In this document: piece after piece, positions 7,259-34,346 of the stretch | Numbering within the stretch: position 1 is the first letter of the stretch | How the letters are laid out: each line of letters begins with the position of its first letter | Assembly (NCBI RefSeq): GCF_000718775.1 | Contig: NZ_JOCB01000089.1 | Coordinates: forward strand, 1-36,213 | Length of the DNA: 36,213 bases | From: Streptomyces sp. NRRL S-31 | GTDB lineage: Bacteria > Actinomycetota > Actinomycetes > Streptomycetales > Streptomycetaceae | Direction of reading: 5' to 3' | Notes under the pieces: model-generated | Database searches by the model: none | What the model was told of the DNA's origin: nothing | The model's input: the letters and a program-made list of their open reading frames with translations, nothing else | Program-made: the position numbers and the translations under genes

Positions 7259-7331
7259 GGTGCTCTCTTCTCCTTCGTGACATGGGGGTGGGTGTGGGGC
7301 GGCCCGGTGACGGCGGGGAGCCGCCCGCGCT

Positions 7332-8525: not shown

Positions 8526-8650
8526 GGCACTCCTTGGGGTGAGGGAGGAGGCTTGCCGCCTCGCCCCGGGAACCGCCCCCGGCACAGACGGTGGCGGGGG
8601 ATGCATCTCCGACTTCCCGTCTGGCCCATTACCAATCAGCCGGCACGCGG

Positions 8651-8695
8651 CGGAGGTGGCCGCGGCGGAGGTGGCCGCGGCGCAGGTGGGCGTGG
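8651..8695. repeat. Three tandem copies of a 15-bp repeat
   Basis: CGGAGGTGGCCGCGG occurs at 8651-8665 and 8666-8680, followed by a diverged copy CGCAGGTGGGCGTGG at 8681-8695. It lies in the divergent intergenic region (8526-8800) between the ligase and DUF2945 genes, just upstream of the sigma-B-like promoter candidate. Confidence 0.7.
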
Positions 8696-8727
8696 CCGGC
8701 CGGGCGGCGGCCGGGCGGACGCGGAGC

Positions 8728-8753
8728 GCGTCGGGCGCGCGCAACGTGGGTAC
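8728..8753 (+). promoter_or_regulatory. Sigma-B-like promoter candidate for the DUF2945/DUF3140 genes
   Basis: GCGT at 8728-8731 and GGGTAC at 8748-8753 are 16 bases apart, fitting the GNNT-N14-16-GGGTAC form known for stress sigma factors of the SigB group in Streptomyces. The first start codon is 47 bases downstream. GGGTAC is frequent by chance in such DNA, so this is only suggestive. Confidence 0.35.
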
Positions 8754-8800
8754 TGCGGCACGGTGAACCCCCGTCACCCCCCACCGGACAGGAGCACGGC

Positions 8801-9037
8801 ATGAGCAAGGCGAAGGACTCTTCCGGCAAGCGGCAGCCGTCCAAGGGCGACAAGGTCGCCTGGCGCAGCCACGGCAGCGAGACCACGGGCACCGTGGAGG
8901 AGAAGATCACCGAGCGGACCGAGGCTGCCGGACGCACCGTGGACGCCTCGCCCGACGACCCGCAGTACGAGGTGCGCAGCGACAAGTCCGGCCGTACGGC
9001 CGTGCACAAGCCGTCCGCCCTGAAGCGCAAGAAGTAG
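8801..9037 (+). CDS. DUF2945 (HVA1/TUDOR-like) small protein
   Basis: This is a 78-residue, strongly charged protein with a core of KGDKVAWRSHGSETTGTVEE, then ERTEAAGRTVDAS, QYEVRSDKSGRTAVHKPSAL and a Lys/Arg tail. The 'W..hG....G.V.......Y.V.sd.sG....Hkp..L' pattern is that of the DUF2945/hypervirulence-associated TUDOR family, a small beta-barrel of unknown biochemical role. AGGAG lies seven bases before the ATG. It is followed after seven bases by the DUF3140 gene, a common pairing, so both are probably expressed together, perhaps under general stress. Confidence 0.85.
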   Translation: MSKAKDSSGKRQPSKGDKVAWRSHGSETTGTVEEKITERTEAAGRTVDASPDDPQYEVRSDKSGRTAVHKPSALKRKK

Positions 9038-9044
9038 GCCGGCC

Positions 9045-9389
9045 GTGGCGGGCGAGGAGGACGCGCACCGAGAGACCTGGGACACCTTCCGCGAACTGGT
9101 GAACATGGCCCCGGCCGCGCTGGAGAAGTGGCTGGCGACCGACGAGTCCCGGGCGGCCGGACAGCACAAGGACGGCGGTGAGTCCACCGGTCACGCCTCC
9201 GGCCGCGCCATCGTGGGCATCCTGCGCAAGAAGAAGGGCGACCTCTCGGACGAGGACTACGCGCACATGCGCAAGGTGACCGGCTACATCCGCCGGCACC
9301 TCGCGCAGCGCCCTTCCGGGGACGTGCGCGACACCCGGTGGCGGTACTCGCTGATGAACTGGGGTCACGACCCGCTCCGGGACAGTTGA
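9045..9389 (+). CDS. DUF3140 family protein
   Basis: This 114-residue protein has the DUF3140 pattern: TWDTFRELVNMAPAALEKWL, then HASGRAIVGILRKKKGDLSD, DYAHMRKVTGYIRRHLAQRP and a C-terminal DTRWRYSLMNWGHDP. The mix of helical segments with a basic centre and the ending 'RWRYSLMNWGHDP' are typical. Biochemical function is not known. It starts with GTG seven bases after the DUF2945 stop, so the two form one transcription unit; homologues usually occur as such pairs. Confidence 0.85.
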   Translation: MAGEEDAHRETWDTFRELVNMAPAALEKWLATDESRAAGQHKDGGESTGHASGRAIVGILRKKKGDLSDEDYAHMRKVTGYIRRHLAQRPSGDVRDTRWRYSLMNWGHDPLRDS

Positions 9390-9494
9390 GGCACGGTGGC
9401 GCCCGGCGGTCCGGACCCACGGGAGGGCCGTACGGGACGGCGGCTGCCTACAGTGGAACGAGCACCATCCACGACGACACCCTGACGAGCGCGC

Positions 9495-10709
9495 ATGAGG
9501 TACCCCCACGCCGGCCCGGACGACGGGCCCAACACCCTGTTCGACCTCGACGCGCTCGACGCCGCCGCGGCACCCGAGGGCGGCGGCACGGCCGGGCGGA
9601 GCGGCCGGGAACCCGGCCCGCGGCCCTCCGCCTTCCGCGACTCCCCCGCGGCCCGGCGGCTGCTGCCGGTGCGGACCGTCTACGCGGAACCGGCCGCCGC
9701 CCGCTCCCCGCGCGGCCGCCAGATCCTCGCCCGTCACCCGGACGCGGAGGTGATCGAGGTGGAGTCGCACTGGCGCATCCCCGGGCTGCACGGCAACGAG
9801 GGCAATGTGCGGCGCTGGGTGCGCGTGAAGGGGGAGACCCTGGTGCTGGGCGAGAAGAAGACGTCGGCCACACGGCCCAACGGCCGGTCCGCCGACTGGA
9901 TCGCGCCCGGCCCCTCCAACGGCTGCGCCCTGGCCTGCGCGTACTGCTACGTGCCGCGCCGCAAGGGGTACGCCAACCCGATCACCGTCTTCACCAACAT
10001 CGACGGCATCATCGCCCACCTGGGACGGCACATCGCGCGCCTGGGCCGCAAACGGGAACCCAACCAGTGCGACGAGTCGGCGTGGGTCTACGACATCGGG
10101 GAGAACGGCGACTGTTCGGTGGACGCGCTGATCTGCGACAACACCGCGGATCTCGTGCACGCCTTCCGCCGGTGGCCCACGGCGAAGGCGTCGTTCGCGA
10201 CCAAGTTCGTCAACCCCGACCTGCTGGCGCTGGACCCGCGGGGCCGGACCAGGATCCGTTTCTCGCTGATGCCGGCGGCGGACTCCCGCCTGCTCGACCT
10301 GCGGACCTCGCCGGTGGACGACCGGATCGCCGCCGCGGCGGACTTCCTGGACGCGGGGTACGAGGTGCACTTCAACCTCTCCCCCGTGGTCGTGCGGCCC
10401 GGCTGGGAGGAGTCGTGGACCGAGCTGCTGCGGCAGCTCGACGACGTGCTGCCCGACCGGGTGAAACGGCAGGCGGCCGCCGAAGTGATCATGCTGACGC
10501 ACAACCAGGAGCTGCACCAGGTCAACCTGGGCTGGCACCCCCGCGCCGAGGAGGTGCTCTGGCAGCCGCCGCTCCAGCAGGCCAAACGGTCGCAGAACGG
10601 GACCCTGAACGTGCGCTACACCAACCGGGTCAAGGCCGGGGCGGTGCGCACCCTGCGCGAACTGGTGTCGGCCCACGCCCCCTGGCTGCGCATCCGCTAC
10701 GCCTTCTGA
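9495..10709 (+). CDS. Spore photoproduct lyase-like radical SAM protein
   Basis: This 404-residue protein has the radical SAM cluster motif C144-x3-C148-x2-C151 (CALACAYCY), followed by VPRRKGYANPITVFTNID, as in the SplB family. Later landmarks are WVYDIGENGDCSVDALICDN, ATKFVNPDLLALDPRGRTRI and the C-terminal NVRYTNRVKAG. True SplB repairs the spore photoproduct thymine dimer in Bacillus endospores using a 4Fe-4S cluster and S-adenosylmethionine. Actinomycete homologues are common, but their substrate is not established, and Streptomyces spores lack the endospore DNA state. The N-terminal 45 residues are low in complexity. The ATG at 9495 has only a weak ribosome site. Confidence 0.88.
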   Translation: MRYPHAGPDDGPNTLFDLDALDAAAAPEGGGTAGRSGREPGPRPSAFRDSPAARRLLPVRTVYAEPAAARSPRGRQILARHPDAEVIEVESHWRIPGLHGNEGNVRRWVRVKGETLVLGEKKTSATRPNGRSADWIAPGPSNGCALACAYCYVPRRKGYANPITVFTNIDGIIAHLGRHIARLGRKREPNQCDESAWVYDIGENGDCSVDALICDNTADLVHAFRRWPTAKASFATKFVNPDLLALDPRGRTRIRFSLMPAADSRLLDLRTSPVDDRIAAAADFLDAGYEVHFNLSPVVVRPGWEESWTELLRQLDDVLPDRVKRQAAAEVIMLTHNQELHQVNLGWHPRAEEVLWQPPLQQAKRSQNGTLNVRYTNRVKAGAVRTLRELVSAHAPWLRIRYAF

Positions 10710-20541: not shown

Positions 20542-21729
20542 TCAGTCGGACGGGCGGCGGGGCAGGCCCGGCAGTTCGAGCGCCGAGCGGAGCATCGGGC
20601 CGATCGGTGTGCGCAGGCCCACGGCGAGGTCCTCGCGCAGCCGGGTGCCTCCGTCGAGGAAGCGCAGCAGCCGGGGGGTGGGGACCCGGGCGAACAGCCG
20701 GCAGAACAGCGCGGGGCCGTCCACCCGGCCGCTGGCCAGGGCGCGCAGCAGGACGGCGTCCATGGCGCGGGAGCGGGCGGAGTGGGCGGGGGGCGGCACC
20801 GGCCGGTGTCCTTGGCGCAGGGCCGCGGCGACCGCGCGGGTCTGGCGTTGCAGGCCGGCGAACGTGTAGCCGGTGGCGGGCCGGGTGGCGCCGCCCACGG
20901 CGCCGATGCGGAACACCGAGGCGCCCACCTGGCGGGGCATCGGGGCGTCCGTCATCGGGATGACGCCGGTCTCGGTGGCGAGGACGCGGGTGCCGGTCAG
21001 GCCCAGCACGTCCCGGGCGTAGTGCCGTACGGCCTCGGTGTAGCCGCTGTCGGTGAGCGGCCGGGGCGAGAACTCCGTGTACTCGACGAGCGCCTCGCAC
21101 GCTCCGGTGGGCAGGACGTAGCCGAACGACAGCCCGTCGGCGGGCTGCGGGGTGCGGAAGTCCATGAGTTCGACGGTGTCCGGGTCGAAGGCCGGGCGGG
21201 CGGTGCGCACGAACCAGCCGTGGAAGTGCTGGAGCAGGGTGGTGCGGGCGGCGGGCAGGCTGCCGAGGGGCCGGGAGTCGAACACCCAGCGGGCCGTGAG
21301 CACGTCCGTCCGGCCGTCGGGGGCGCGCAGCCGGACGCGGGCGCCGCCCTCGACGTCCTCCACCGTCTCGACGGTGGCCTGGACGCGCCGCACGTTGGGG
21401 CTGCGCGCCAGGTCCGGGCCGACGAGGGCCTCGAAGTCGTCGGAGCGGATCATCTTGTAGCGCAGCGGGGCGAGGTCGCCCTCGACCGGGTGGCCGTGGG
21501 GCGGGCGCACCTGCACGCGGCGCCAGCGGGCGGTCAGCGCCGCGTCGAAGCGTCCGGGGCCCGCCTCCCAGTAGCACCAGGTGCGGCGCGGCGGGCGCAG
21601 CGGGCCGGGCGGCGCCTCCAGCAGGACGACGGTGGGCGTGCGCAGCCCGGGTCTGTGCCCGGCCAGCCGGTGGGCCAGGGACAGGCCGGCGGCTCCCCCG
21701 CCCACGACGGCCACCTCCGCCTCGAACAC
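20542..21729 (-). CDS. crtY: CrtY, lycopene beta-cyclase
   Basis: CrtY closes both ends of lycopene to give beta-carotene using a reduced flavin. The 395-residue protein begins with the FAD-binding VAVVGGGAAGLSLAHRLAGH, then PPRRTWCYWEAGPGRFDA (the CrtY-type W-C-Y-W-E region), VFDSRPLG, FHGWFVRT and a C-terminal RIGAVGGATRPATGYTFAGL, all hallmarks of CrtY-family cyclases. The GTG start has GGGAG five bases upstream. It leads the crtYTU operon, divergent from crtE. The product feeds CrtU. Confidence 0.93.
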   Translation of the reverse strand: MFEAEVAVVGGGAAGLSLAHRLAGHRPGLRTPTVVLLEAPPGPLRPPRRTWCYWEAGPGRFDAALTARWRRVQVRPPHGHPVEGDLAPLRYKMIRSDDFEALVGPDLARSPNVRRVQATVETVEDVEGGARVRLRAPDGRTDVLTARWVFDSRPLGSLPAARTTLLQHFHGWFVRTARPAFDPDTVELMDFRTPQPADGLSFGYVLPTGACEALVEYTEFSPRPLTDSGYTEAVRHYARDVLGLTGTRVLATETGVIPMTDAPMPRQVGASVFRIGAVGGATRPATGYTFAGLQRQTRAVAAALRQGHRPVPPPAHSARSRAMDAVLLRALASGRVDGPALFCRLFARVPTPRLLRFLDGGTRLREDLAVGLRTPIGPMLRSALELPGLPRRPSD

Positions 21730-21971
21730 GAGGGCTCCCTTCCGTGCTGCGCGTCCGTGTGCGCAGCGCGCACTGTCCGCGTATTCCCGCCCGTGTGCCC
21801 GAACGGATGCGGGTCACTCGAATGCGACACGCATCCGTCATGTCGGGTGAGAGATGTGGAAGACACCGTCACAGACGGCCCGTCGCGCTTCGGCCGTCAG
21901 CGCATCCACGCCCGGCGCGCGCGCCGAAGACGTGATGACGAACCGCTCTGTGATCAGACGAGAGGAACCGG
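21730..21971. promoter_or_regulatory. Divergent crtY/crtE control region with inverted repeat
   Basis: The 242-base gap separates crtY and crtE. CGGATGCG (21804-21811) and CGCATCCG (21830-21837) form a perfect 8-bp inverted repeat with an 18-base spacer containing GTCACTCGAATGCG. The position suits an operator shared by both operons. In S. coelicolor the crt genes are induced by light through LitR and the sigma factor LitS (established). No LitR or LitS gene is in this window, and no confident -35/-10 pair was identified. Confidence 0.6.
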
Positions 21972-23285
21972 ATGCGCCCCACGCAGCCGAAGGAACCCCA
22001 CGCGGTATCGCCGCCCCCCGGCCCGCGCCCGGTACCGCCGTCGGGCGGCGCCGTCCGGGTGTGTCCAGAGGAGGTGGCCGGCGTGGCCGGGGACGGAGTC
22101 CCGGCCGGTCTCGACGACGTGCGGGCGGTCGACGCGGACGTGCCCGCCGCCGTCGGCCGGGTCCTCGACCATGTGCTGGCCGAGCGTGTCGCGCGGGCCC
22201 GCGCCATGGACGCCCGGTTCGCCGGGGAACTGGCCGGGCGGGTGTCCCGGTTCACCCGGTCCGGGGGCAAGCGCACCCGCTCGCAGTTGCTGTGGTGGAC
22301 GCTGCGGGCCTGCGCGGGGACCGACGAGGTGCCGGTCGCCGCCGGCCTGCGGATCGGGGCCGCGCTGGAACTGTTGCAGACCTGCGCCCTGGTGCACGAC
22401 GACGTGATGGACGGCTCGGCGCTGCGACGCGGCCGTCCCGCGCTCCACGCCCAGTTGCGCGCCGAGTACGCGGGCGCGGCCTCCCCCGAGCGCGTCGCCC
22501 GCTTCGCGGAGGCGGGCGGGCTGCTGGCCGGCGATCTGGCGCTGGCCTGGTCGGACGACATGGTGGCCGGCACTCCCCTGGCGCCGGTGACCGCGGGGGT
22601 GGTCCGCCGGCTGTGGAGCGACACGCGCACGGAGATGGTGGCCGGTCAGTACCTGGACGTGCAGGGCCAGCTGACGGGCGCGTACACCCTGTCCCGGGCG
22701 CTGCGCACGGCCTGTCTCAAGAGCGGCAGGTACTCCGTGGAGCGGCCCCTCGCGCTGGGCGCCGCCCTGGCGGGCGCGGATGACGCCACGACGCGCGCGC
22801 TGTGCGCGGCCGGCATCCGCATGGGCATGGCCTTCCAGCTCCGCGACGACCTGGACGACGTCTTCGGCGCGCCCCGGCGGACCGGCAAGCCCCGCGGCGG
22901 TGACATCCGCGAGGGCAAGCCGACCTGTCTCGTCGCCCTGGCGCGGCGCCGGGCCGCGGCGATGGACGATCACCGGGCGCTGGCCGTCCTGGACCGCTCG
23001 CTCGGCGATCCCCGGCTGACCGACGCGGATCTGGACCGGGTCAGGGAGGTGCTGACCGGGACCGGTGCCCGGGAGGCGGTCGAGAGCAGGATCAGCCGGC
23101 TGGTGGGGCAGGGGCTGTACCGGCTCGACGGTGTCCTGCCCGAGCACGGGGCGGGGGGCCGGCTGCGCGAGCTGCTCACCCGCACGGCCGGCGGGGCGGC
23201 GGGGGACGGCGACGGCGCTCCGCGCCCCGGACCGGACCCGGCCGGGTCACTGGCCGCCTCCGGCGCGCGGGAGACCGGGCGGTGA
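21972..23285 (+). CDS. crtE: CrtE, geranylgeranyl diphosphate synthase
   Basis: CrtE condenses isopentenyl diphosphate with allylic diphosphates to GGPP, the C20 precursor. The 437-residue protein has both Asp-rich magnesium motifs, DDVMD at 143-147 and DDLDD at 292-296, plus GGKRTRSQLLWW, LLQTCALVHDD and MAFQLRDDLDDVFG. It is longer than bacterial IspA-type enzymes because of a Pro-rich N-terminus of about 35 residues and a disordered C-terminus. GAGAGGAA lies five bases before the ATG. The stop overlaps the crtI start by GTGA, so it leads crtEIBV. Confidence 0.94.
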   Translation: MRPTQPKEPHAVSPPPGPRPVPPSGGAVRVCPEEVAGVAGDGVPAGLDDVRAVDADVPAAVGRVLDHVLAERVARARAMDARFAGELAGRVSRFTRSGGKRTRSQLLWWTLRACAGTDEVPVAAGLRIGAALELLQTCALVHDDVMDGSALRRGRPALHAQLRAEYAGAASPERVARFAEAGGLLAGDLALAWSDDMVAGTPLAPVTAGVVRRLWSDTRTEMVAGQYLDVQGQLTGAYTLSRALRTACLKSGRYSVERPLALGAALAGADDATTRALCAAGIRMGMAFQLRDDLDDVFGAPRRTGKPRGGDIREGKPTCLVALARRRAAAMDDHRALAVLDRSLGDPRLTDADLDRVREVLTGTGAREAVESRISRLVGQGLYRLDGVLPEHGAGGRLRELLTRTAGGAAGDGDGAPRPGPDPAGSLAASGARETGR

Positions 23286-24820
23286 GGCGCACCCTGCCCG
23301 GGCGTACCGACCACGTCGTGGTGGTGGGAGCCGGTCTCGCCGGACTGTCGGCCGCTCTGCACCTGCTCGGCGCCGGACGCCGTGTGACCGTCGTGGAGCG
23401 GGGCGCGCTGCCCGGCGGCCGGGCCGGGCTGCTCCGTCTGGGCGGCTACCGGGTCGACACCGGCCCCACCGTGCTGACCATGCCCCACCTCGCCGACGAG
23501 GCCTTCGCGGCGGTCGGCGACAGCCTGCGCCGCCGGGTCGAACTGGTCCCGCTGCACCCCGCCTACCGGGCGTGTTTCGCGGACGGCGGCACGCTCGACG
23601 TGCACACCGACGCCGACGCGATGACGGCGGAGGTGGAACGCTTCGCCGGGCCCGGTGAGGCGGCCGGTTACCGGCGGCTGCGCGCCTGGCTGGAGAGGCT
23701 CCACCGGGCGCAGATGCGCCGTTTCATCGACGCCAACTTCGACTCGCCGCTGAACCTGCTCAACGCCGACCTCGCCCGGCTGGCCGCGCTCGGCGGGTTC
23801 GGCCGGCTGGACGCGCGGATCGGGCACTTCCTGAAGGACGAACGGCTGCGCCGGGTGTTCACCTTCCAGTCGCTGTACGCGGGGGTGCCGCCGGCGCGCG
23901 CCCTGGCCGCGTACGCGGTCATCGCCTACATGGACACCGTCGCCGGGGTGTACTTCCCCCGGGGCGGCATGCACGCCCTGCCGCGTGCCATGGCGGACGC
24001 CGCCGCCGACGCGGGAGCCGAGCTGCGCCACGGGGAGGAGGTCGTCCGGCTGGAACGCTCGGGCGGCCGGATCACCGCCGTCGTCACGGACCGGGACCGC
24101 GTGCCCTGCGACGCCGTCGTGCTCACCCCGGACCTGCCGGTCGCCTACCGGCTGCTGGGCCGCCGGCCCCGGCGTCCGCTGCGGCTGCGGCACTCGCCGT
24201 CCGCCGTGGTGCTGCACGCCGGAACGGACCGGACCTGGCCGCAGCTGGCGCACCACACCATCTCCTTCGGCGCGGCCTGGCACTCCACGTTCGCCGAACT
24301 CACCCGCACCGGACGGCTGATGACCGACCCCTCCCTGCTGATCACCCGGCCCACCGCCACGGATCCCTCGCTGGCCCCGCCGGGCCGCCAGCTGCACTAC
24401 ATCCTCGCGCCCTGCCCCAACACCGACATCGGGCCGGACGCCGCGGCGTGGGGCGAACTCGGTCCCCGCTACCGGCGGGCGCTGCTGCGGGAGCTGGAGC
24501 GGCGCGGTCTGGCGGGGATCGAGGCCGCCGTCGAGGAGGAGTCGCTCGTCACCCCGGCGACCTGGCAGGCCGAGGGCCATGCGGCGGGCACGCCCTTCTC
24601 TGCCGCCCACACCTTCGCGCAGACCGGGCCGTTCCGGCCGCGCAACCTGGTGCGGGGCACGGAGAACGCCGTCCTGGCCGGCTGCGGGACCACACCGGGC
24701 GTCGGCGTACCGACCGTGCTGCTGTCCGGCAAACTCGCCGCCCTGCGGATCACCGGTCCGCCCCGTCCCGCGTCCGCCCGCTCGCGCACCTCGCCGGCCC
24801 CCGCGAAGGAGACCTCCTGA
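23282..24820 (+). CDS. crtI: CrtI, phytoene desaturase
   Basis: CrtI dehydrogenates phytoene to lycopene. The 512-residue flavoprotein opens with [20 protein letters not shown], then [20 protein letters not shown] and [11 protein letters not shown], as in CrtI-type desaturases. The C-terminal end has [20 protein letters not shown] followed by [16 protein letters not shown], the FAD/membrane contact. Its GTG start lies within the crtE stop (GTGA) and its TGA overlaps the crtB ATG, so translation is coupled throughout. It also carries [14 protein letters not shown], typical of the family. Confidence 0.94.
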
Positions 24821-25887
24821 TGACCGACCGTGAACTGGACGCGGCCGGGATCGGCGACCCGGTGCTGCGCGCCGCGTACCGGCACTGCCGCGCCCTCAAC
24901 GCACGGCACGGCAGGACGTACTTCCTCGCCACCCGGCTGCTGCCGGTCGAGCGCCGGCCCGCCGTGCACGCCCTGTACGGCTTCGCCCGCTGGGCCGACG
25001 ACATCGTGGACCGCCTCGGTGCCGGCGCGGACACCGGGCGGCGCGCGGCGGCCCTGGCGGAGCTGGGGCGGAGCCTGGAGGAGGGGCTGCGGGACGGGCG
25101 CGGCGAGGAGCCAGTGGTGCGGGCGCTCGCCGACACCGCGCGCCGGTACGGCATCGAGCACGCGCTGTTCCGTGACTTCATGTCCGCGATGACCGCCGAT
25201 CTCACCGTGACCGACTACGCCACCTACGCCGACCTGCGCGGCTACATGCACGGCTCGGCGGCGGTGATCGGATTGCAGATGCTGCCCGTCCTGGGCACGG
25301 TGGTGCCACGCCGGGAGGCGGCACCGTACGCGGCGGCGCTGGGGGTCGCCTTCCAGCTCAGCAACTTCCTCCGGGACGTGGGCGAGGACCTGGACCGCGG
25401 GCGCGTGTACCTGCCCGCCGACCTGCTGGCGGGCCATGGCGTCGACCGGGAGCTGCTGCGGTGGAGCCGGGACACCGGCCGGGCCGATCCGCGCATCGGT
25501 GCGGCGCTGCGCGAGTTCGAGGCGCTGACGCGCGGCGTCTACCGGCAGGCGCTGCCCGGCCTCGCCCTGCTGGACCCGGTGTCGCGCCCGTGCGTCCGCA
25601 CCGCGTTCGTCCTGTACGGCGGCATCCTGGACGCGGTCGCCGAGGGTGGCTACGCGGTGCTGCACCGGCGGGCGGTGGTCCCCCGCGGGCGCCGGGCGGC
25701 CGTCGCCGCCGACGGGGTGGCGCGGGTGGTCGCCGCGCGGTGGCGCGCCCGCCGGCCGGTACGGCGCCCGGCGGCACCGGACGCGCTGACCGGCCCGGGG
25801 TGCGGACCCGTGTCCGGACCGGCGCCCGACTCGTCCTGCGAAGCGGTGGTGACACCGTGCGCTGCGGCCGTGCGGGAGATCGCGTGA
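24820..25887 (+). CDS. crtB: CrtB, phytoene synthase
   Basis: CrtB joins two GGPP to phytoene. The 355-residue protein has the squalene/phytoene synthase pattern: [35 protein letters not shown] (first Asp motif), [18 protein letters not shown] and [20 protein letters not shown] (second Asp motif). The last 80 residues (rich in Arg, Ala and Pro) go beyond the catalytic fold. The start codon overlaps the crtI stop by one base (TGATG), and the end overlaps crtV by GTGA. Confidence 0.94.
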
Positions 25888-26909
25888 GGCCCGTTCCGCC
25901 CGGGCGGCGCCGCCGGCTGCCGCTCTCGCTGCGCCGGGACCCGGTGCCCTGGGACCGTCAGCGGCCCACCTGGCGCGACGCCGCGCCCGGGGTGATCGCA
26001 CAGGCGTTGAAGCGGGCCCAGGCCCGCCCGTCCGGCAACTGGTACGTCGTCGGCGCCTCGTCCGGCCTGGGCGGCGACCGCCCGGTCGCCCGGACGGTGG
26101 CGGGCCGGGAGGTGGTGGTGTGGCGCGGCGCCGACGGCCGTGCGGTGGGCGGTCCCGGCGTCTGTCCCCATCTCGGGGCGCCGCTGCGGGACAGTCCCGT
26201 CCGCTGCGGCACCCTGGTGTGCCACTGGCACGGGCTCGTCCTGGACGGCGTGCCGTACGCGGGCTGGGCGCCGTACCCGGTGCACGACGACGGCGTGCTG
26301 CTGTGGGTGCGGCTGGACGAGGTGGGCGGTGAGGCGCCGCTGGAGGCCCCGGTCGTCCCGCGGCGGCCCGAGCGGGCGCGCGCGCTGACGGCCGTCTACA
26401 CCGGCACGGGGGTCTGCGAGCCCGAGGACGTGGTGGCCAACCGTCTGGACCCGTGGCACGGCGCGTGGTTCCACCCGTACTCGTTCGTCGACCTCACGGT
26501 GGTCGGGTCGCCCGAGGGCTCCGGGCGCGGGGACCGCGATGGTGAGGACGCCTTCACCGTCGACGTCTCCTTCAAGGTGGCCGGACGGCTGGTCGTACCG
26601 GTCCGTGCCGTGTTCACCGCCCCGGGGCCGCGCACGGTCGTCATGCGCATCACGGAGGGGGAGGGCGAGGGTTCCGTCGTCGAGACCCACGCGACACCGC
26701 TGGGGCCGGACGACGCGGGCCGGCCCCGGACCGCCGTGACCGAGGCGGTGACGGCGGCCTCCGGCCGGCCGGGGTTCGCCGTCGTCCGGCGGGCCGCGCC
26801 GCTGCTGCGGCCGCTGGTGCGCACGGCCGCGGCACGCCTGTGGCGGGACGACCTGGCCTACGCGGAACGCCGGTGGCGGCTGCGTGCCACGGGACGCTTC
26901 CCGGGCTGA
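25884..26909 (+). CDS. crtV: CrtV, Rieske-type DUF5914 protein of the carotenoid cluster
   Basis: This 341-residue protein carries a Rieske [2Fe-2S] signature: C94-P-H96 (VCPHLGAPL) and C113-H-W-H116 (VCHWHGL) with the usual 16-residue spacing. A C-terminal domain ([20 protein letters not shown]) matches DUF5914-type proteins found in streptomycete crt clusters under the name CrtV. Its reaction is not established; older annotation as a methylesterase does not fit the Rieske motif. A redox or oxygenase role on the carotenoid is a reasonable inference. It is the last gene of crtEIBV, followed by a strong hairpin. Confidence 0.85.
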
Positions 26910-26982: not shown

Positions 26983-27147
26983 TCAGCGCTCCTCGCGGAA
27001 GGGGACGTGCTCTCCGGCCACCGGGTCGTACTTGCGCAGGACGAGCCGGTCCGGATCGTTCAGCCGGTTCTTGCGCGTGACGTAGGTGACGCCGGTTCCG
27101 GCCGTCGACTTCAGCCGGACGACGGGACGCACGGTGCTGCGTGCCAT
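26983..27147 (-). CDS. rpmG: 50S ribosomal protein L33, cysteine-free form
   Basis: The 54-residue protein [20 protein letters not shown], then [20 protein letters not shown] and a short acidic/basic tail, is a clear L33. It lacks the two CxxC zinc pairs, so it is the C-minus paralogue type. In S. coelicolor such zinc-free paralogues of ribosomal proteins are controlled by the zinc regulator Zur (established), but I see no convincing Zur box here. AAAGGAG six bases before the ATG supports the start. It is a solitary gene divergent from the phosphatase gene at 27327. Confidence 0.9.
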
Positions 27148-27326
27148 GGGGTGCTCCTTTCCTCGACCGACACCGCCCGCCCTGAGCGGAGCATGTCAGT
27201 CACAGGAGCTGCAACCGCCGCGGGCCCCGGGACATTCCCGCCCCGGCCGTCCCCCTCGGCGCCGACCCCCCGGACGGCCCACATCCCCCGGGACCGGCTT
27301 GCGTCGTACGCCTCCATGCGGAACTG

Positions 27327-29072
27327 TTGTCGGAAGACATCTGTTGTCGTCGCAGAGAGGTGGTGGGGCGCGTCCGAGGCGCGTCCCCGCGTGTGTTCCA
27401 TTCCAGCGGCTCACCCGTAGATCCGCGCAGTGCCGCGGTCAGCGTCGGCGCGGCGTGGGCCCATGCCCCCTACCCGGTGATCGTCGCGGACCGGGACAGC
27501 GCCGTCGTCGAACTCAACGCGGCCGCGCGGCTGCTGTGGTCGGACGCCGCCCCGGGCGACCGGTTGCGCGACACCGTGCCGTCCTGGCTGGTCGAGGCCC
27601 ACGGCAGATTCTCCGACGGCGTGGCCGACGGCACGGGACGGGCCGCAGGCACCGTCGCGGACCGCTTCTTCGAGGCCCACCCGACCCCGGCGGACGACGG
27701 CGACGTGGTGTGGTGGCTCGTCGACGACACCGACCGGCGGCTGGCGGAGGCCGCCCTGGCCGGCGCCCGGCAGCGGTCCGCGCTCCTGGCCGACGTCTCC
27801 GGCCAGTTGCTGTCCACGCTGAACCTGGCCCGGTGCATGGAGGCCACGGCGCGCATGGCCACCGATCACCTCGCCGAGGCGGCCCTGCTCATCGCGCCGC
27901 CGCAGGGCCGTCACCACCAGCTGACCTACGCGCACCGCGGCGGGCCGGTGACCCGGGTCACCGCGCCGGTCGACGTGCGCGCCGTACCGGGTCTGGCCGA
28001 GGCGCTCCAGGGGTTCCCGCCGGTACCGGCACGCTGGATCAACCCGGCCGAGCTGCCCGGCTGGGTGCGCCCGGCGGAGTTCGCCGGGCCGGTGGGCTCC
28101 GTGATCGTCGCCCCGCTGCCCGGACACGGGGTGCCCGCGGGCGCGCTCATCCTGCTGCGCTCCAGCCGGGAGCAGGCGTTCAGCGACGAGGAGGAGCTGT
28201 TCGCCCGGCTCTTCGCCGCCCGGGCCGGAGCCGCCCTGTCGGCCGCCCGGCTCTACACCGAGCAGGCGTCCATCACCGCCACGCTGATGCGGGAACTGCT
28301 GCCGCCGCGCCTGGAGAGCGTGCACGGGGTGGAGTACGCGGGGGCCTACCGCCCGGCCGGGGACAACGAGCGGATCGGCGGCGACTTCTACGACGTCCAC
28401 CCCGGCGCCGGTCCCGCCGAGGAGACGCTGGTGGTACTCGGGGACGTGGCCGGCAAGGGACTGGACGCGGCGGTGCTGACCGGCAAGATCCGCAACACGC
28501 TGCACGCGCTGCTGCCGCTCGCCGACGACCACGCCCGCACGCTGACCCTGCTCAACAGCGCGTTGCTCTCCTCCCACCACACCCGGTTCGCCACCCTCGT
28601 CCTGGCCTCCGTGCGCCGTCGCGGCAGCAGGGTGGAGCTGCGCCTGACCAGCGCGGGCCACCTCGCCCCGCTGATCGTCCGCAACGACGGCACCGTGGAG
28701 GAGAGCGGCACCCGCGGCTCGCTCATCGGTGCCCTGCCGAAGGTCGGCGCGAACACCGACCGGGTGACGCTGCGGCCCGGGGAGACCTGCCTGCTCTACA
28801 CCGACGGCGTCACCGAGGCCCGCGGCGGACCGCTGGGTGACGAGCTCTTCGGCGAGCAGCGGCTCAAGCGGGCCCTGGCCGAGTGCGCGGGCCTGCCTGC
28901 CGAGGCGGTCGTCGAGCGGATCCAGATGCTGACCGCCGGGTGGGTGGGCGCGGGCAGCCACGACGACGTCGCCACCGTCGCCATCAGCGCGCCGCGCACC
29001 ACGGATCTGACGGTGGTGGGCGGCGGCGGCCGGCGCCGGGCCGCCGGCACGACGTACGGGAGGAACGGGTGA
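27327..29072 (+). CDS. SpoIIE-type PP2C phosphatase with PAS-like and GAF regions
   Basis: This is an RsbP/RsbU-like Ser/Thr phosphatase that would dephosphorylate STAS anti-anti-sigma proteins. About 25-130 resemble a PAS sensor (YPVIVADRDSAVVELNAAAR), 150-320 a GAF domain, and 330-560 the SpoIIE phosphatase. The manganese site is intact: GGDFYD near 351-356, GDVAGKGLDAAV, and SHDDVATVAI at the end. The start is uncertain: a TTG at 27327 gives the longest form (581 residues); GTG codons at 27360, 27363 and 27393 are in frame. Its stop overlaps the cobalamin-binding gene by GTGA, and a STAS gene follows, so sensor, phosphatase and target form one operon. Confidence 0.88.
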   Translation: MSEDICCRRREVVGRVRGASPRVFHSSGSPVDPRSAAVSVGAAWAHAPYPVIVADRDSAVVELNAAARLLWSDAAPGDRLRDTVPSWLVEAHGRFSDGVADGTGRAAGTVADRFFEAHPTPADDGDVVWWLVDDTDRRLAEAALAGARQRSALLADVSGQLLSTLNLARCMEATARMATDHLAEAALLIAPPQGRHHQLTYAHRGGPVTRVTAPVDVRAVPGLAEALQGFPPVPARWINPAELPGWVRPAEFAGPVGSVIVAPLPGHGVPAGALILLRSSREQAFSDEEELFARLFAARAGAALSAARLYTEQASITATLMRELLPPRLESVHGVEYAGAYRPAGDNERIGGDFYDVHPGAGPAEETLVVLGDVAGKGLDAAVLTGKIRNTLHALLPLADDHARTLTLLNSALLSSHHTRFATLVLASVRRRGSRVELRLTSAGHLAPLIVRNDGTVEESGTRGSLIGALPKVGANTDRVTLRPGETCLLYTDGVTEARGGPLGDELFGEQRLKRALAECAGLPAEAVVERIQMLTAGWVGAGSHDDVATVAISAPRTTDLTVVGGGGRRRAAGTTYGRNG

Positions 29073-30166
29073 GCGCTCCCTGGGCGGTCGGCACCGACGC
29101 CCTGGTGGACGAGTTGTGGCGGGCGGTGGCGGACGGCGACGAGTACACGGCCGTCGGCGTCGTCCGCCGGGCGCGGGCCGACGGGACGGACGAGGAGACG
29201 CTGCTGCTCGACGTGATCGCCGCGGTGCAGGCGAGGGTCGGCACGGAGTGGGCCGCCGACCGGCTGACCGTGGCGCAGGAACGCGCCGCCACCGCCGTCA
29301 ACGAACGTGTCGTCACCGCCCTGGTGCACGACCGGTCCCCGGCCGGCCGGGACGAACGGCCGCCCCGGGGCCGCGTCACGGTCGGCTGCGTGGACGGGGA
29401 GTGGCACGCCATGCCGGCGCGGCTGGTCGCGGAGGTGCTGCGGCTGCGGGGCTGGCGGGTGGACTACCTCGGCGCCCGGACCCCCACCCCGCACCTGGTG
29501 TCCCACCTGCACAGCACCAGTGCCGAGGCGGTCCTGCTGTCCGGGTCGATCCCCACGCGCCTGTCCGCCGCGCACGCCGCCGTCACCGCCTGCCAGGCGG
29601 TCGGCGTCCCGGTCCTCGCGGGCGGCCGGGCCTTCGGGCCGGACGGCCGCTACGCCCGCGCGCTGGGGGCCGACCACTGGGCGCCGGACGCCCGGGCCGC
29701 GGCGGCCGTACTGGACCGCGCGCCGGCACCGCCCGATCCGACGGCGGCCCGGCAGGTCCTGGACGACCTGCCGCACCTGTCCGACCAGGAGTACACCTAC
29801 GTCGCCCGGGCCCGCGGCCGGCTCGTCCGGCAGACGCTGACCAGCCTGGAGGAACGGTTCCCCGCGCTGCGCGCCTACACCGACGCGCAGCGCGAGCGGA
29901 CCGCCGAGGACCTCGCCCACATGGTCGACTCCCTGGCCACCGCCCTGTACGTCGACGACACGGCGCTGTTCACCACGTTCCTGTGCTGGACCGCCGACGT
30001 CCTTCAGGCGCGGCGGGTGCCGGCCCACTCGCTGGTGGCCGCGCTCGCGGTGCTCGGCGAGAACCTGCTCGACTTCCCCCGCGCCCTGCGCCTCATCGGC
30101 GACGGCACCGCCGCGCTCGCCGGGCGCCCCCTTCCCCCCGTCCCCGGAGCCCGCCCCACAGCATGA
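29069..30166 (+). CDS. Cobalamin-binding sensor-like protein in a phosphatase/STAS operon
   Basis: This 365-residue protein has a four-helix cap (about 10-80) and a Rossmann B12-binding domain (about 95-220) like MetH and CarH/LitR sensors, but no DNA-binding domain. The cap has W61-x9-E71-R72, matching the W-x9-E(H) element that holds the upper adenosyl face in photosensitive CarH-type proteins, with Arg replacing His. DGEWHAM places His113 where the lower cobalt ligand lies; the family motif E/D-x-H-x-x-G lacks its Gly here. LLSGSIP and VLAGGRAFG complete the corrinoid site. A helical domain of about 110 residues follows (RERTAEDLAHMVDSLATALY, then TFLCWTADVLQARRVPAHSL), resembling globin-like stress sensors. 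It overlaps both the phosphatase and STAS genes. Confidence 0.85.
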   Translation: MSAPWAVGTDALVDELWRAVADGDEYTAVGVVRRARADGTDEETLLLDVIAAVQARVGTEWAADRLTVAQERAATAVNERVVTALVHDRSPAGRDERPPRGRVTVGCVDGEWHAMPARLVAEVLRLRGWRVDYLGARTPTPHLVSHLHSTSAEAVLLSGSIPTRLSAAHAAVTACQAVGVPVLAGGRAFGPDGRYARALGADHWAPDARAAAAVLDRAPAPPDPTAARQVLDDLPHLSDQEYTYVARARGRLVRQTLTSLEERFPALRAYTDAQRERTAEDLAHMVDSLATALYVDDTALFTTFLCWTADVLQARRVPAHSLVAALAVLGENLLDFPRALRLIGDGTAALAGRPLPPVPGARPTA

Positions 30167-30510
30167 CCCACCTGCCTCCACCCGCCCTGCGCCTCACCGT
30201 CGCACGGGTAGCCCGCGAACTGACCGTCGGCGTCGCCGGTGACCTCGATCCCGACACCGGCGACCACCTGGTCGACACGGTCACCGAGCTCCTGGCCCTG
30301 CACCCAGGGGTACGGGGCGTGCGCCTCGACTTCGCCGAGCTGTCCCGCATCGACTCCGGGGGGCTCTCGGCCCTGCTGATGGTCCACCGCCGGACCGGCG
30401 CCGCGGGCTGCGTCCTGTACCTGGACAACCGTCCGGCCCCGCTGGAACGCCTGCTGCGGCAGACCGGCACCCTCGACCACCTCACCGCCCGCCCGGCGCA
30501 CGCATCCTGA
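30163..30510 (+). CDS. STAS domain anti-sigma factor antagonist
   Basis: The 115-residue protein is a single STAS domain, the type that binds an RsbW-like kinase/anti-sigma factor when unphosphorylated. The phospho-acceptor Ser65 lies in LSRIDSGGLSALLMV (SpoIIAA/BldG D-S-x-G pattern). LTVARVARELTVGVAGDLDP forms the first strands. The ATG overlaps the previous stop (ATGA), so it is the coupled downstream partner of the phosphatase and the B12-binding protein, and the likely phosphatase substrate. A perfect 10-bp hairpin follows. Confidence 0.88.
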   Translation: MTHLPPPALRLTVARVARELTVGVAGDLDPDTGDHLVDTVTELLALHPGVRGVRLDFAELSRIDSGGLSALLMVHRRTGAAGCVLYLDNRPAPLERLLRQTGTLDHLTARPAHAS

Positions 30511-30657: not shown

Positions 30658-31044
30658 ATGGACCAACGGCACGGGGACGACGGAATGCAGTGGGAAAGCA
30701 GGGCCACCGTGAAGGTGACCTGCCACGACCGAGTCTTCGAGATCGCGGTGCGCGGCGAGGTCGACTACGAGGAGAACGATCTGTTGCAGGCCGCCTGGGC
30801 GGAGGCGGACGACTCCGGACGCCCGGCGACCGTGGTGGACCTCTCCCGGGTCACGTTCGCCGACAGCGGACTGCTCAACGCGCTGCTCGACGCCTGGCGC
30901 CGGCACCGGGCCACCGGCCGCGAACTGATCCTGCTCGGCCCCTTCCACTCGACGGTCGAACGGCTCTTCTCCCTGACGGGCACCAAGGAGCACTTCACCA
31001 TCACCGATTCCCGCGCCAGGGCCATGCGCGCGGGCGACGCCTGA
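30658..31044 (+). CDS. STAS domain anti-sigma factor antagonist (second)
   Basis: The protein of about 128 residues is a STAS domain with VFEIAVRGEVDYEENDLLQA, VVDLSRVTFADSGLLNALLD and HSTVERLFSLTGTKEHFTI. Ser70 in ADSG is the likely phospho-acceptor. Start choice is uncertain: ATG 30658 is used, but ATG 30685 with GGGGAC upstream would remove nine residues. It lies after the terminator of the preceding operon and so probably has its own promoter. The minus-strand ATPases just beyond are candidate binding partners. Confidence 0.85.
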   Translation: MDQRHGDDGMQWESRATVKVTCHDRVFEIAVRGEVDYEENDLLQAAWAEADDSGRPATVVDLSRVTFADSGLLNALLDAWRRHRATGRELILLGPFHSTVERLFSLTGTKEHFTITDSRARAMRAGDA

Positions 31045-31122: not shown

Positions 31123-31626
31123 CTACACGGGGGTACGGCCGGTGAGGCTTCCGTCCGGGTCGTCGGTGAGGGCGATACGGGCGGTGACGCGCTTGCCGAC
31201 CGGCTCCCGCCGCACCTCGAACCCCTGGACGACCGCCATCACGATCTCCAGTCCGTGCTGCCCGACCCGGCCCGGATCGGCGGCCCGCGCCACCGGCAGC
31301 ACCGGTTCGCTGTCCCAGACCGCCACCTCGACCAGGCCGCCGACGATCCGCAGCTCCATCAGCACCGGGCCCGGAGCGTACTTGCGGGCGTTGGTGACCA
31401 GCTCGCTGACCACCAGCCGGGTGACGTCCAGCGCCCGCGCCGACACCGGCAGCCCGAACTCGCCCTGCACCCGGGCGAGGAAACCGGCCGCGTGCCGGCG
31501 TGCCTCGGCGATGCACGGGCCCTGACCGTCCAGTGGAACAGTCTCCTGGATCGACTCGGCTCCCGTGGCCCCCTCACCACCAGTACCCGACGTCAACGGC
31601 TCCATAATGCGCGTTCCCCCGTTCAT
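31123..31626 (-). CDS. RsbW-like ATP-binding protein (anti-sigma factor type)
   Basis: The 167-residue GHKL ATPase has the N-box SELVTNARKYA and the glycine motif VGQHGLEIVMAVV; AVWDSEPVLP gives the D of the G1 box. Such proteins in Streptomyces are free-standing serine kinases or anti-sigma factors acting on STAS proteins. The first 40 residues are Gly/Thr-rich and probably disordered. It is convergent with the STAS gene ending at 31044, the most obvious candidate partner. An internal ATG eight codons in is an alternative start. Confidence 0.85.
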   Translation of the reverse strand: MNGGTRIMEPLTSGTGGEGATGAESIQETVPLDGQGPCIAEARRHAAGFLARVQGEFGLPVSARALDVTRLVVSELVTNARKYAPGPVLMELRIVGGLVEVAVWDSEPVLPVARAADPGRVGQHGLEIVMAVVQGFEVRREPVGKRVTARIALTDDPDGSLTGRTPV

Positions 31627-31714
31627 GGCCCACGCTTACCCGCCATCGGGCGGGACATGCCCGGTGTGTCCGGCGTTTCCACCGCCGTCGGCGCGACGGC
31701 ACCGGGCGGACGCC

Positions 31715-32161
31715 TCAGTGGGCCAGGGGAAGGACGGCCCGGACGGCCTTGCCCCGGGTCCCCGGCTCGACGCGCACCTGCGCGGACAGTTCCAGGACCA
31801 TCGGCCAGCCGAATCCGCCCGGCGCCCACACCGGGGAGCGGCGCCGGTACGGCGGGGAGGGGCTCGCGTCGTCCACCGTGACGGTGACCCGCCCCTCCTC
31901 CGCGCGCAGGGCGAAGCCGGTGACACCGCCGGCGTGCTGGATGGCGTTGGTCACCAGCTCGGACACCACGAGCAGCACGGCCTGTTCCTGGTCGGGACGG
32001 CGGGGCCTGAGCCGGGACAGGAAGGAACGCGCCACATCCCGTGCGCGTTCAGCCGTGCGCGGACAGGTCTCGGGCGGCTGCGCACCCTCCGGGGAAGACC
32101 GCACGGTTCGCATTCCTCCGATGGCGTAGGCGATGGCGTGGGGACGGTACGGCGACGGCAC
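31715..32161 (-). CDS. RsbW-like ATP-binding protein (second)
   Basis: This GHKL-fold protein has the N-box SELVTNAIQHA and the later glycine-rich GGFGWPMVLELS, with TVTVDDASPSPP as the D box. The length is 148 residues from the GTG at 32161, or 132 from the ATG at 32113, which has GGAGGA very close. ERARDVARSFLSRLRPRRPD gives the first helices. The gene lies 88 bases upstream of the first ATPase on the same strand and may share its transcript. A palindromic AT-rich element lies about 255 bases upstream. Confidence 0.85.
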   Translation of the reverse strand: MPSPYRPHAIAYAIGGMRTVRSSPEGAQPPETCPRTAERARDVARSFLSRLRPRRPDQEQAVLLVVSELVTNAIQHAGGVTGFALRAEEGRVTVTVDDASPSPPYRRRSPVWAPGGFGWPMVLELSAQVRVEPGTRGKAVRAVLPLAH

Positions 32162-32563: not shown

Positions 32564-33049
32564 TCAGGCCGTCCGGCTGTCGGAACCCTCCGCGTCGTCG
32601 TGTATCTGCGTGGCCGCCGCGGCGCAGAACGCCTCCAGCCCTTCCAGCAGCGCGGCCCGCTTGGTGGCCGGCATCAGCGTCAGGACTTCCTGGAGCTCCC
32701 TCTCCCTGCGCGCCCGCAGGTCGTCGAGGAAGGCACGCCCCCGGCTGCTGAGGTACAGCCGTACCTCGCGCCGGTCGGTGGGGCTCACCACGCGGTCGAC
32801 GAACCCGGCCGCCTGGAGCCGGTCGCACAGCCGGCTGGTGGACGGCGGGGTGGAGGCGAGCGAATCGGCGAGGGTACGCAGGTTGATGCCCTCGTGGTGC
32901 TCAAGGATGAGCAGCACGCGCAATTGGGACGCGGAAGCGGGCGCGGTGGACGCACGACCCCAGAGCACTTCCAGTAGCTCACCGGCCGTGGAGGTCACAC
33001 GGGCGACCTCGTCGGGCTGTGGCAGATGTCGGAAGGCAGTCACAGTCAC
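32564..33049 (-). CDS. MarR family transcriptional regulator (first)
   Basis: The 161-residue protein has a MarR winged helix: SASQLRVLLILEHHEGINLR, TLADSLASTPPSTSRLCDRL (recognition helix) and SPTDRREVRLYLSSRGRAFL (wing), then a C-terminal dimer helix. These proteins repress genes and release DNA on ligand binding. It is divergent from the SpoIIE-like phosphatase at 33186 across 136 bases. It is clearly related to the second MarR at 34627-35127 (shared SRLCDRLxAAG and RREVRL). The first GTG at 33049 is used as start; one at 33043 is equally possible. Confidence 0.88.
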   Translation of the reverse strand: MTVTAFRHLPQPDEVARVTSTAGELLEVLWGRASTAPASASQLRVLLILEHHEGINLRTLADSLASTPPSTSRLCDRLQAAGFVDRVVSPTDRREVRLYLSSRGRAFLDDLRARRERELQEVLTLMPATKRAALLEGLEAFCAAAATQIHDDAEGSDSRTA

Positions 33050-33160
33050 ACTCTCGCAGGCTCTGGGACGTTTGCCAGCCTACTAGGGAAGCGAGCCGAC
33101 GAAAGATGCCCCGCAGGACCGGCGCGCACGGATCGAGCGCCACCATGCGACCGGAATCAG

Positions 33161-33180
33161 ACCAAGGATTGGTGTTTTTT
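33161..33180 (+). terminator. Terminator-like hairpin with T-run just before the phosphatase start
   Basis: ACCAA (33161-33165) pairs with TTGGT (33169-33173) around GGA, followed by G and six T bases (33175-33180). This intrinsic-terminator shape lies only five bases before the GTG at 33186, an unusual place. The five-pair stem is weak. Confidence 0.35.
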
Positions 33181-33185
33181 CCATC

Positions 33186-34346
33186 GTGAACAGATTTGTG
33201 ACCGCTGAACGCGCCCTGCGTACGGCGGCACCGCACGAGTTGCTCGACGCCGTCCGCCGCGTGCTCGCCGAGCAGTACGGGGCGCGGTCAGCCGAGCTGT
33301 TCATGGCCGACTACGGCCTGACGGTGCTCCAGCCGGTCTCCGCGCTGCCGCACTCGCCGGAGCCGCTGCCGCTGCACGGCAGCGCGGCCGGCCGCGCCTT
33401 CGGCGCGCAGGAGCCGTTCGTGGAGCCGGACCGGGACGGGCTGGTCCGCGTGCATCTGCCCGTGAGCGTGCGCGGCGACCGGATCGGTGTGCTGTCGGTG
33501 ACCCTGCCGGACGGCGACCCGGCCGCGAGCCCGCTGGCCGAGCTGGCCGACATCGCCCAGGTGCTCGGCCATGAGGTGGTCGTCGCCGAGCGGGACACCG
33601 ACCTCTATCTCCAGGCCCGCCGCAAGGAGCGGCTCACGCTCGCCGCCGAGATGCAGTGGCAGCTGCTGCCCGGCTGCTCGTGCACCCGTCCGGAGTACGA
33701 ACTGGGCGCCCAGCTCGAACCCGCCTACGCCATCTTCGGCGACAACTTCGACTGGTCCGCGACCGCTGACCGCCTCATGCTGTACGTCACCAACGGCATG
33801 GGCGAGGGCATAGAGGCCGCCCTGCTGACCAGTCTGGCCATCAACGCGCTGCGCAACGCCCGGCGGGCGGACCTCTCCCTCGCGGACCAGGCCGCCCTGG
33901 CCGACCAGGCGGTCTACGCCCACTACCAGGGCCGCTCCTACCTCTCCGTGCTGATGTTCGACTTCGAGCTCGCCACCGGACGCGTGAAGGTGGTGGACGC
34001 CGGATCCCCGCAACTGCTGCTGCTGCGCGGCGGGAGCGTCGAACGGGTCACCTTCGAGGCCCAGTTGCCCCTCGGCATGTTCGAGGAGACCGACTACATG
34101 ACCCAGGAGTTCCGGGTGGAGCCCGGCGACCGGCTGGTCTTCGTCAGCGACGGGGTGTATGCCGTCGCCGACCCCAAGGGCGAGGCGTACGGGGACGCCG
34201 CGCTCGCGCGGGCCATCCAGTCCACCCGTCTGCTGCCCGCCGCCGAGGTGCCGCGCGCGCTGCTGCGGGAGCTGTCGGGCCACCGCGGCCGGTCCGTCCC
34301 GGACGACGACGCGCTGGTGGTGTGCCTGGACTGGCACGGGCGCTGA
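33186..34346 (+). CDS. Atypical SpoIIE/PP2C-like phosphatase with GAF-like N-terminus
   Basis: This 386-residue protein has an N-terminal sensor-like region (about 1-140: VLAEQYGARSAELFMADYGL, VRVHLPVSVRGDRIGVLSVT), then a SpoIIE-type phosphatase fold (EMQWQLLP, AYAIFGDNFDW, ALLTSLAINALRNARRA, GDRLVFVSDGVYAVAD, DDDALVVCLDW). The first metal motif keeps both Asp (GD186NFD189), but the usual GDVMGHG-type loop reads T-N203-G-M-G-E207-G, with Asn for the metal-binding Asp and Glu for His. Activity may therefore be altered or lost. I recall this variant as a recurring Streptomyces subfamily beside MarR genes. No good ribosome site precedes the GTG; GTG 33198 is an alternative. Confidence 0.85.
   Translation: MNRFVTAERALRTAAPHELLDAVRRVLAEQYGARSAELFMADYGLTVLQPVSALPHSPEPLPLHGSAAGRAFGAQEPFVEPDRDGLVRVHLPVSVRGDRIGVLSVTLPDGDPAASPLAELADIAQVLGHEVVVAERDTDLYLQARRKERLTLAAEMQWQLLPGCSCTRPEYELGAQLEPAYAIFGDNFDWSATADRLMLYVTNGMGEGIEAALLTSLAINALRNARRADLSLADQAALADQAVYAHYQGRSYLSVLMFDFELATGRVKVVDAGSPQLLLLRGGSVERVTFEAQLPLGMFEETDYMTQEFRVEPGDRLVFVSDGVYAVADPKGEAYGDAALARAIQSTRLLPAAEVPRALLRELSGHRGRSVPDDDALVVCLDWHGR

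Follow-up and report, generated by a model that had tools for sequence, protein, structure and literature searches.

Among the closest described systems to the operon reported here are the photocobilins SasPcob and AbDPcob. In SasPcob the dimer opens on illumination, in AbDPcob light increases cyclase turnover more than 10-fold, photocobilin proteins supplied in trans affected the isolated cyclase, and the function of standalone photocobilins was called less clear (PMC10979010). The same study examined the gene neighbourhoods of 506 sequences and followed up four species, one of them a Streptomyces; its STRING networks indicated STAS, SpoIIE and PP2C-like phosphatases as potential interaction partners of SasPcob. 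The photocobilin-SpoIIE-STAS link is already in print, then, as a network prediction. Since photoglobins share homology with the RsbR globin of the stressosome, that globin has served as an outgroup (PMC10151467), and light-response signatures of photoglobin-type domains have been given (PMC11796333). A literature search, which did not extend to most subscription papers, returned no study of a Streptomyces partner switch with a photocobilin. Here we analyzed a 36,213-nucleotide stretch of Streptomyces sp. NRRL S-31 (contig NZ_JOCB01000089.1 of assembly GCF_000718775.1; hereafter the window), which carries a phosphatase, a photocobilin homologue and a STAS protein in one operon. We propose, with a probability of roughly 0.65, that operons of this type are light-gated partner switches: the photocobilin would respond to light and control the phosphatase, and through it a sigma factor.

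An earlier note on this DNA, made from the sequence alone, had described three genes overlapping by GTGA and ATGA. Coordinates and Pfam bear this out, with all three genes on the forward strand and 4-base overlaps at both junctions:

27363 to 29072, + strand: SpoIIE/PPM serine phosphatase, start alternatively at 27327 (Pfam SpoIIE PF07228, 1.9e-39)
29069 to 30166, + strand: photocobilin homologue of 365 amino acids, with a four-helix bundle, a Rossmann B12 domain and a C-terminal globin domain
30163 to 30510, + strand: STAS anti-anti-sigma protein of 115 amino acids (Pfam STAS_2, 1.1e-13)

Homology, key residues, gene order and spread are supported by the analysis: the middle protein has the residues of an adenosylcobalamin (AdoCbl) site and a biliverdin site, and it is encoded downstream of a PPM phosphatase with two sensory-type domains in its structural model.

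Residues 14-352 of the middle protein align to the photocobilin chains 8J2X (expectation value E 9e-78) and 8J2W (9.2e-78), and the protein matches photocobilin 8J2Y at 5.3e-33. The best chain from outside the photocobilins is 8JBS, a MerR-family B12 protein (1.7e-11), and the best CarH chain reaches 6.8e-8. Pfam recognizes B12-binding (PF02310, 6.3e-14) and B12-binding_2 (PF02607, 7.4e-12); at E up to 0.01 it finds no DNA-binding domain, including the N-terminal MerR type, as the earlier note had stated. The NCBIfam CarH model scores 50 bits from model position 81, the cut-off being 400, and a CarH model search of the source genome returned two photocobilins as sole matches. Structure prediction of the 365-residue protein alone, proposed beforehand as a check, points the same way: the AlphaFold2 model, built from a 36-row alignment (A1), has a mean predicted local distance difference test score (pLDDT) of 85 and a predicted template modelling score (pTM) of 0.80, and its top Foldseek match is photocobilin 8J2W (E 1.3e-22, template modelling score 0.81, 46% identity). 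Pfam, the model and Foldseek all place the AdoCbl-domain architecture, a four-helix bundle followed by a Rossmann fold, in this protein. Residues from about 215 on correspond to a bilin-type globin domain by the 8J2X/8J2W alignment and Foldseek, and no Pfam family scores above its cut-off in this C-terminal part. Homology to the photocobilins is near certain. The previous description as a CarH-like light sensor was right in naming a light-sensing-type cobalamin protein but missed the globin domain and the biliverdin site of a photocobilin homologue. That the protein instead takes part in B12-dependent methyl transfer and sits in a regulatory operon by chance is suggested by weak matches to corrinoid proteins (1y80 9e-10, 7xcn 1.3e-6), but the photocobilin match is better by at least about 68 orders of magnitude and spans the globin domain, and no corrinoid methyltransferase is found in the neighbour clusters that could be named, most other clusters being unannotated. 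We consider this explanation extremely improbable.

The key residues of SasPcob (Trp61, Glu71-His72, His108, His137, Asp270 and Trp296; PMC10979010) were placed on the window protein through the alignment to 8J2X/8J2W:

29249 to 29251, + strand: W61, the adenosyl-stacking Trp by its role in SasPcob (PMC10979010)
29279 to 29284, + strand: E71, which is conserved, and R72
29405 to 29407, + strand: H113 (SasPcob His108), in D-G-E-W-H (E/DxH motif), expected to be the lower axial ligand of cobalt
29492 to 29494, + strand: H142 (SasPcob His137, which forms a salt bridge to the biliverdin of the other monomer)
29909 to 29911, + strand: D281 (SasPcob Asp270, a biliverdin contact)
29987 to 29989, + strand: W307 (SasPcob Trp296, which contacts the biliverdin D ring and the corrin)

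Conservation was scored on 184 aligned sequences: the window protein, those of 64 loci, and the 119 database matches, out of 120 listed, whose length is 330-400 residues. All 182 scored sequences have W61 and E71, and H113 is kept in 183/183; D281, H142 and W307 are kept in 179/183, 175/183 and 173/183. The full set W-E-H-H-H-D-W is found in 77 of 80 named loci, these being the best 80 of 561, biased to the close relatives of the query and with some genomes repeated (L137 and G016). Conservation of W61, E71 and the bilin-pocket D281, together with the carotenoid (crt) and LitR neighbours described below, argues against a corrinoid-status or redox sensor, in which AdoCbl versus other cobalamins, not light, would set the dark activity of the phosphatase. 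AdoCbl binding alone does lower AbDPcob cyclase activity relative to the apo protein (PMC10979010), and we judge such a sensor decidedly unlikely.

The earlier note had singled out W61-x9-E71 and His113 as CarH/LitR elements. All are present, but the residue following E71 is Arg and not His. Position 72 is His in 181/182 scored sequences and in all 80 named loci (best 80 of 561), and Arg in the window copy only. Because the His of the W..EH motif is replaced, we classify the window protein on its sequence as a photocobilin homologue and variant, short of a photocobilin proven to work. The Glu-His pair of SasPcob joins adenosine and the dimer interface (PMC10979010), and for this reason Arg72 may, by analogy, alter the photocycle or the dimer of the window copy.

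A second phosphatase-photocobilin-STAS operon lies in the same genome (contig C61, locus L003, about 6207-9552). Its photocobilin has the standard seven residues, His72 included, and all photocobilin sequence features tested; a further STAS gene is located upstream on the opposite strand (5718-6053). The presence of this standard copy and the rarity of Arg72 would suit a blind paralogue in the window, in which Arg72 uncouples light and the protein merely scaffolds the phosphatase or sets it constitutively. So would the only heme oxygenase match of the genome (contig C65, L099, about 2093-2416), whose N-terminal part is joined in frame to the C-terminal part without about 100 central residues and which makes the biliverdin supply in the source genome doubtful. 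The gap may be a real deletion or an assembly collapse, and Arg72 itself could be a base-call error. Against a blind paralogue, H72R and P166S are the sole departures of the window photocobilin at the 84 best-conserved columns (set median 1), and the ratios of nonsynonymous to synonymous substitution rates (dN/dS), taken against L068 as the nearest of the loci with DNA for this comparison, are 0.34 (photocobilin), 0.22 (phosphatase) and 0.43 (STAS). With two departures and a dN/dS of 0.34, the photocobilin has no clear decay and nothing points to a pseudogene. Taking both sides together, we think a blind paralogue unlikely. The genome also encodes a member of the adenosyltransferase family (PF02572). 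Heme oxygenase was found in 139 of 150 Streptomyces genomes and, having no discriminating power, was dropped as a co-occurrence test; genome G082 has a two-piece heme oxygenase match resembling L099.

These 150 genomes are an even draw from the genus, and 57 of them encode a photocobilin homologue (E up to 1e-20). The 64 genus loci are all listed places except the window. A survey of gene order had been named beforehand as a check, and the order is not unique to the source strain. In 63/64 genus loci a phosphatase gene precedes the photocobilin gene in the same orientation, a recurrence beyond chance, the exception being the truncated copy L051; of the 59 phosphatase-photocobilin junctions that were measurable, 42 are an exact 4-base ATGA/GTGA overlap. 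STAS follows downstream in 44/64 by the listing count, within 500 bases in 43, so that the three-gene order described earlier holds almost throughout for the phosphatase pair and less generally for STAS. STAS was not detected at 20 loci (L041, L053-L058, L060-L067, L069-L071, L074 and L083); at L069 the second STAS gene (see below) occupies the downstream STAS place. With the phosphatase in 63/64 loci and STAS in 44/64, the stable unit is therefore phosphatase plus photocobilin, and STAS is a frequent third and the least constant member. The phosphatase is likewise upstream on the same strand in 77/80 named loci (best 80 of 561). In a phylum sample, relatives at E up to 1e-30 occur in 23 of 396 genomes, 6 of these Streptomyces. 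Two other families of the class, f3 and f6, also have the phosphatase next to the photocobilin (L113, L115, L116, L122, L125 and L135), and the 15 loci outside the class have no phosphatase match within flanks of up to 1.5 kb, except L127 (about 0.9 kb downstream).

L051 (genome G016, contig C37) is a truncated photocobilin with an in-frame stop, with STAS kept and the phosphatase not found, and looks like a decaying second copy. Nine divergent relatives (L057, L058, L060-L062 and L064-L067) have the bilin-pocket Trp replaced by Phe, and in 4/9 the Asp is also replaced by Phe; judging from these residues, a natural loss of bilin binding is possible.

The phosphatase was earlier taken to be complete, in agreement with its PF07228 match and with the presence of the five catalytic Asp residues (D341, D361, D481, D534 and D535). 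All five are kept in 59/61 scored genus loci and 70/72 scored named loci, the remaining two being partly aligned in each set. Profile search and Foldseek group the PPM domain with RsbU-type, RssB and SpoIIE phosphatases. The AlphaFold2 model (alignment A2, 36 rows; pLDDT 79, pTM 0.58) consists of a PAS-like domain (about 28-121), a helix (123-151), a GAF-like domain (155-270), a long helix (275-311) and the PPM domain; the PAS-like and GAF-like names are our reading of the secondary structure of the model, Pfam giving a sub-threshold GAF alone. PPM phosphatases and GGDEF cyclases have been proposed to share control through a coiled-coil linker (PMC12143880). The linker helix 275-311 resembles this proposed common control point, which fits the photocobilin control of the GGDEF enzyme in AbDPcob. 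Directly upstream of the likely phosphatase start, CTGTTGTCG occurs two times, 17 bases apart (window 27324-27349).

The STAS protein has its phospho-acceptor Ser, as the earlier note had it: S65, at 30355, in I-D-S-G-G. The serine is kept in 42/43 scored genus loci. We also compared loci with crt genes within 6 kb flanks, of which there are 20 among the 80 named loci (best 80 of 561). At these 20, STAS is undetected in 8, the serine is absent in 7 and kept in 5, versus 46/60 with the serine at the other named loci (Fisher P 8e-5, kinship ignored). The crt-side losses, and the failure to detect STAS in 20/64 genus loci when the phosphatase is missing in 1/64, point to an alternative in which the photocobilin gates the phosphatase but the substrate is a STAS encoded elsewhere, the cis STAS being a dispensable accessory. 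The near-constant serine of the genus STAS proteins, its retention in the window, itself crt-adjacent, and in 5/20 crt-adjacent named loci speak against a dispensable protein. We regard a substrate encoded elsewhere as a serious possibility, although not the favored one.

Further candidate parts of a partner switch lie near the operon, including two HATPase proteins recognized by Pfam at 31123-32161:

30658 to 31044, + strand: second STAS protein, a possible second substrate
31123 to 31626, - strand: HATPase_c_2 protein, a candidate anti-sigma kinase
31715 to 32161, - strand: HATPase_c_2 protein, a candidate anti-sigma kinase

For the light-gated partner switch we infer chromophore binding, light control, the direction of the effect, the STAS target and the sigma factor as follows. 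Green or red light would cleave the Co-C bond of AdoCbl, upon which the photocobilin dimer would open. The rearranged photocobilin would act as a trans-acting, RsbT-like co-regulator, binding the phosphatase at its sensory domains or its linker so as to shift phosphatase dimerisation and activity, with light as the activating direction by analogy with AbDPcob. The active phosphatase would dephosphorylate STAS, local or elsewhere, and dephosphorylated STAS would capture the anti-sigma kinase and free a SigB-type sigma factor, with an output perhaps tied to the carotenoid cluster in one subclade.

Several observations weigh against this mechanism. They include Arg72, the incomplete heme oxygenase and the 20 genus loci in which STAS was not detected, and no sigma factor was found among the 26 window proteins scanned. 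A promoter scan upstream of the phosphatase, with 10/65 loci excluded (phosphatase start unaligned or too little upstream DNA), found the strict SigB-like pattern in 0/55 loci (0.4 expected) and the loose pattern in 5/55 (2.6 expected); neither gives support. In the crtY-crtE region (window 21650-22300), both strands are free of sites for the strict and the loose SigB-type pattern. In S. griseus, CrtS is a SigB-like carotenoid factor. A literature search that included PMC5742136 did not turn this up.

Carotenoid genes, named from their Pfam families, lie upstream of the operon, with a small gene in between:

20542 to 26909: carotenoid genes, with lycopene cyclase on the - strand and polyprenyl synthase, CrtI-type oxidase, phytoene synthase and Rieske/DUF5914 on the + strand
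26983 to 27147, opposite strand: small gene, on our reading of its translation ribosomal protein L33

Since this opposite-strand gene separates them, the carotenoid cluster and the operon are neighbours and not one transcript. Using crtI of the window as query, we found crtI in 74/150 genomes and crtI together with photocobilin in 41, with 28 expected (Fisher P 2e-5, kinship ignored). The two are within 10 kb in 7/57 genomes, source genome included, with about 0.1 expected under random placement and about 0.45 under placement in 2 Mb chromosome arms. In the 13 genomes with both on one chromosome-size contig, 3 have them within 10 kb versus 0.08 expected (P 7e-5), the expectation being built from cross-genome pairs, with folding by distance to the end. 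The position beside carotenoid genes remarked on earlier is thus beyond coincidence. The crtI gene is upstream and co-directional in the window and L068, and downstream in either direction at the others (L070, L071 and L074; L041 and L091). In a tree of 62/65 rows, from which the truncated or split L051, L059 and L063 were removed before building, 6/7 crt-side photocobilins fall within one 11-row subclade and L091 stands apart; the crt label needs at least three changes and is not significantly clustered (107/500 shuffles as low).

LitR with LitS turns on Streptomyces crt genes (crtE) in light (PMC12705666). Among the 74 crtI genomes, LitR lies within 10 kb of crtI in 13 and photocobilin in 7; both together were found in 0/74, with about 1.2 expected by chance, which is not significant alone. 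In four genomes, no more than 60 kb separates photocobilin from LitR. Mutual exclusion of the two near crt was dropped as evidence in view of this chance expectation and of G061, which has both at 20 kb. An absence of LitR from the source genome was also dropped, as a Streptomyces LitR query matched fragments of LitR close to the ends of two contigs, C28 and C153. The main text of PMC10979010 names carotenoids once, for CarH. In that text and in the literature searched we found no description of the linkage to carotenoid genes, nor of how often STAS or its serine is lost beside them. A tentative and rather doubtful extension is that the photocobilin-phosphatase pair provides a second B12-based light input to Streptomyces carotenoid synthesis beside LitR, acting on the same genes via phosphorylation and a partner switch with red and green sensing and, at the many clusters without a local STAS or serine, through a distant partner.

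Downstream of the operon, the window contains a MarR gene and a second SpoIIE phosphatase (32564-34346); relatives of each are within 8.5 kb of a photocobilin in 17/65 loci (window included), often at other positions than in the window. Another light-damage gene, encoding a spore photoproduct lyase-like protein (PF20903), lies at 9495-10709; within the short flanks available for the 64 other loci, nothing matches this protein at E up to 1e-20. S. coelicolor SCO7325-SCO7327, considered as a known counterpart, was rejected, with no sequence link established and SCO7327 being named OsaD and linked to osmotic sensing (PMC9739823); no mention of SCO7326 was found in the literature searched.

The earlier note, in proposing cobalamin as a different entry point to partner switching, was right that gene order ties a light-sensing-type cobalamin protein to a phosphatase and a STAS protein, but the idea of a photocobilin acting with SpoIIE and STAS was already printed as a prediction (PMC10979010). 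If the light-gated partner switch is true, B12 and bilin would carry a light signal into bacterial partner switching, standalone photocobilins would have a native enzyme target, and Streptomyces would have a red-light response beyond what LitR gives. With a candidate phosphatase and STAS substrate beside the sensor, named culturable strains and a visible pigment readout, the operon would also offer a test bed.

Compared with the Bacillus subtilis RsbU-RsbV-RsbW and RsbP systems, the locus likewise has a PPM phosphatase, a STAS substrate and HATPase proteins close together, but its input is a separate B12-bilin protein and not stressosome-released RsbT, and no sigma factor was found nearby. With CarH/LitR the window protein shares the four-helix and Rossmann AdoCbl domain with its W..E motif; unlike them it lacks a MerR DNA-binding domain, has an extra globin domain and would act through a phosphatase. 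AbDPcob (8J2Y, sensor part) has the same sensory module, which was shown to control an enzyme, but it is fused to the GGDEF enzyme, is 30% identical and has the bilin-pocket Asp replaced by His. The nearest counterpart is SasPcob of Saccharothrix syringae (8J2W, 8J2X), which is also standalone, of similar length and of the same domain order (46% identity by structural alignment), has the same chromophore residues except one and is predicted in print to interact with STAS, SpoIIE and PP2C proteins. Unlike SasPcob, the window copy has Arg72, nearby carotenoid genes and a genome with two copies of the operon.

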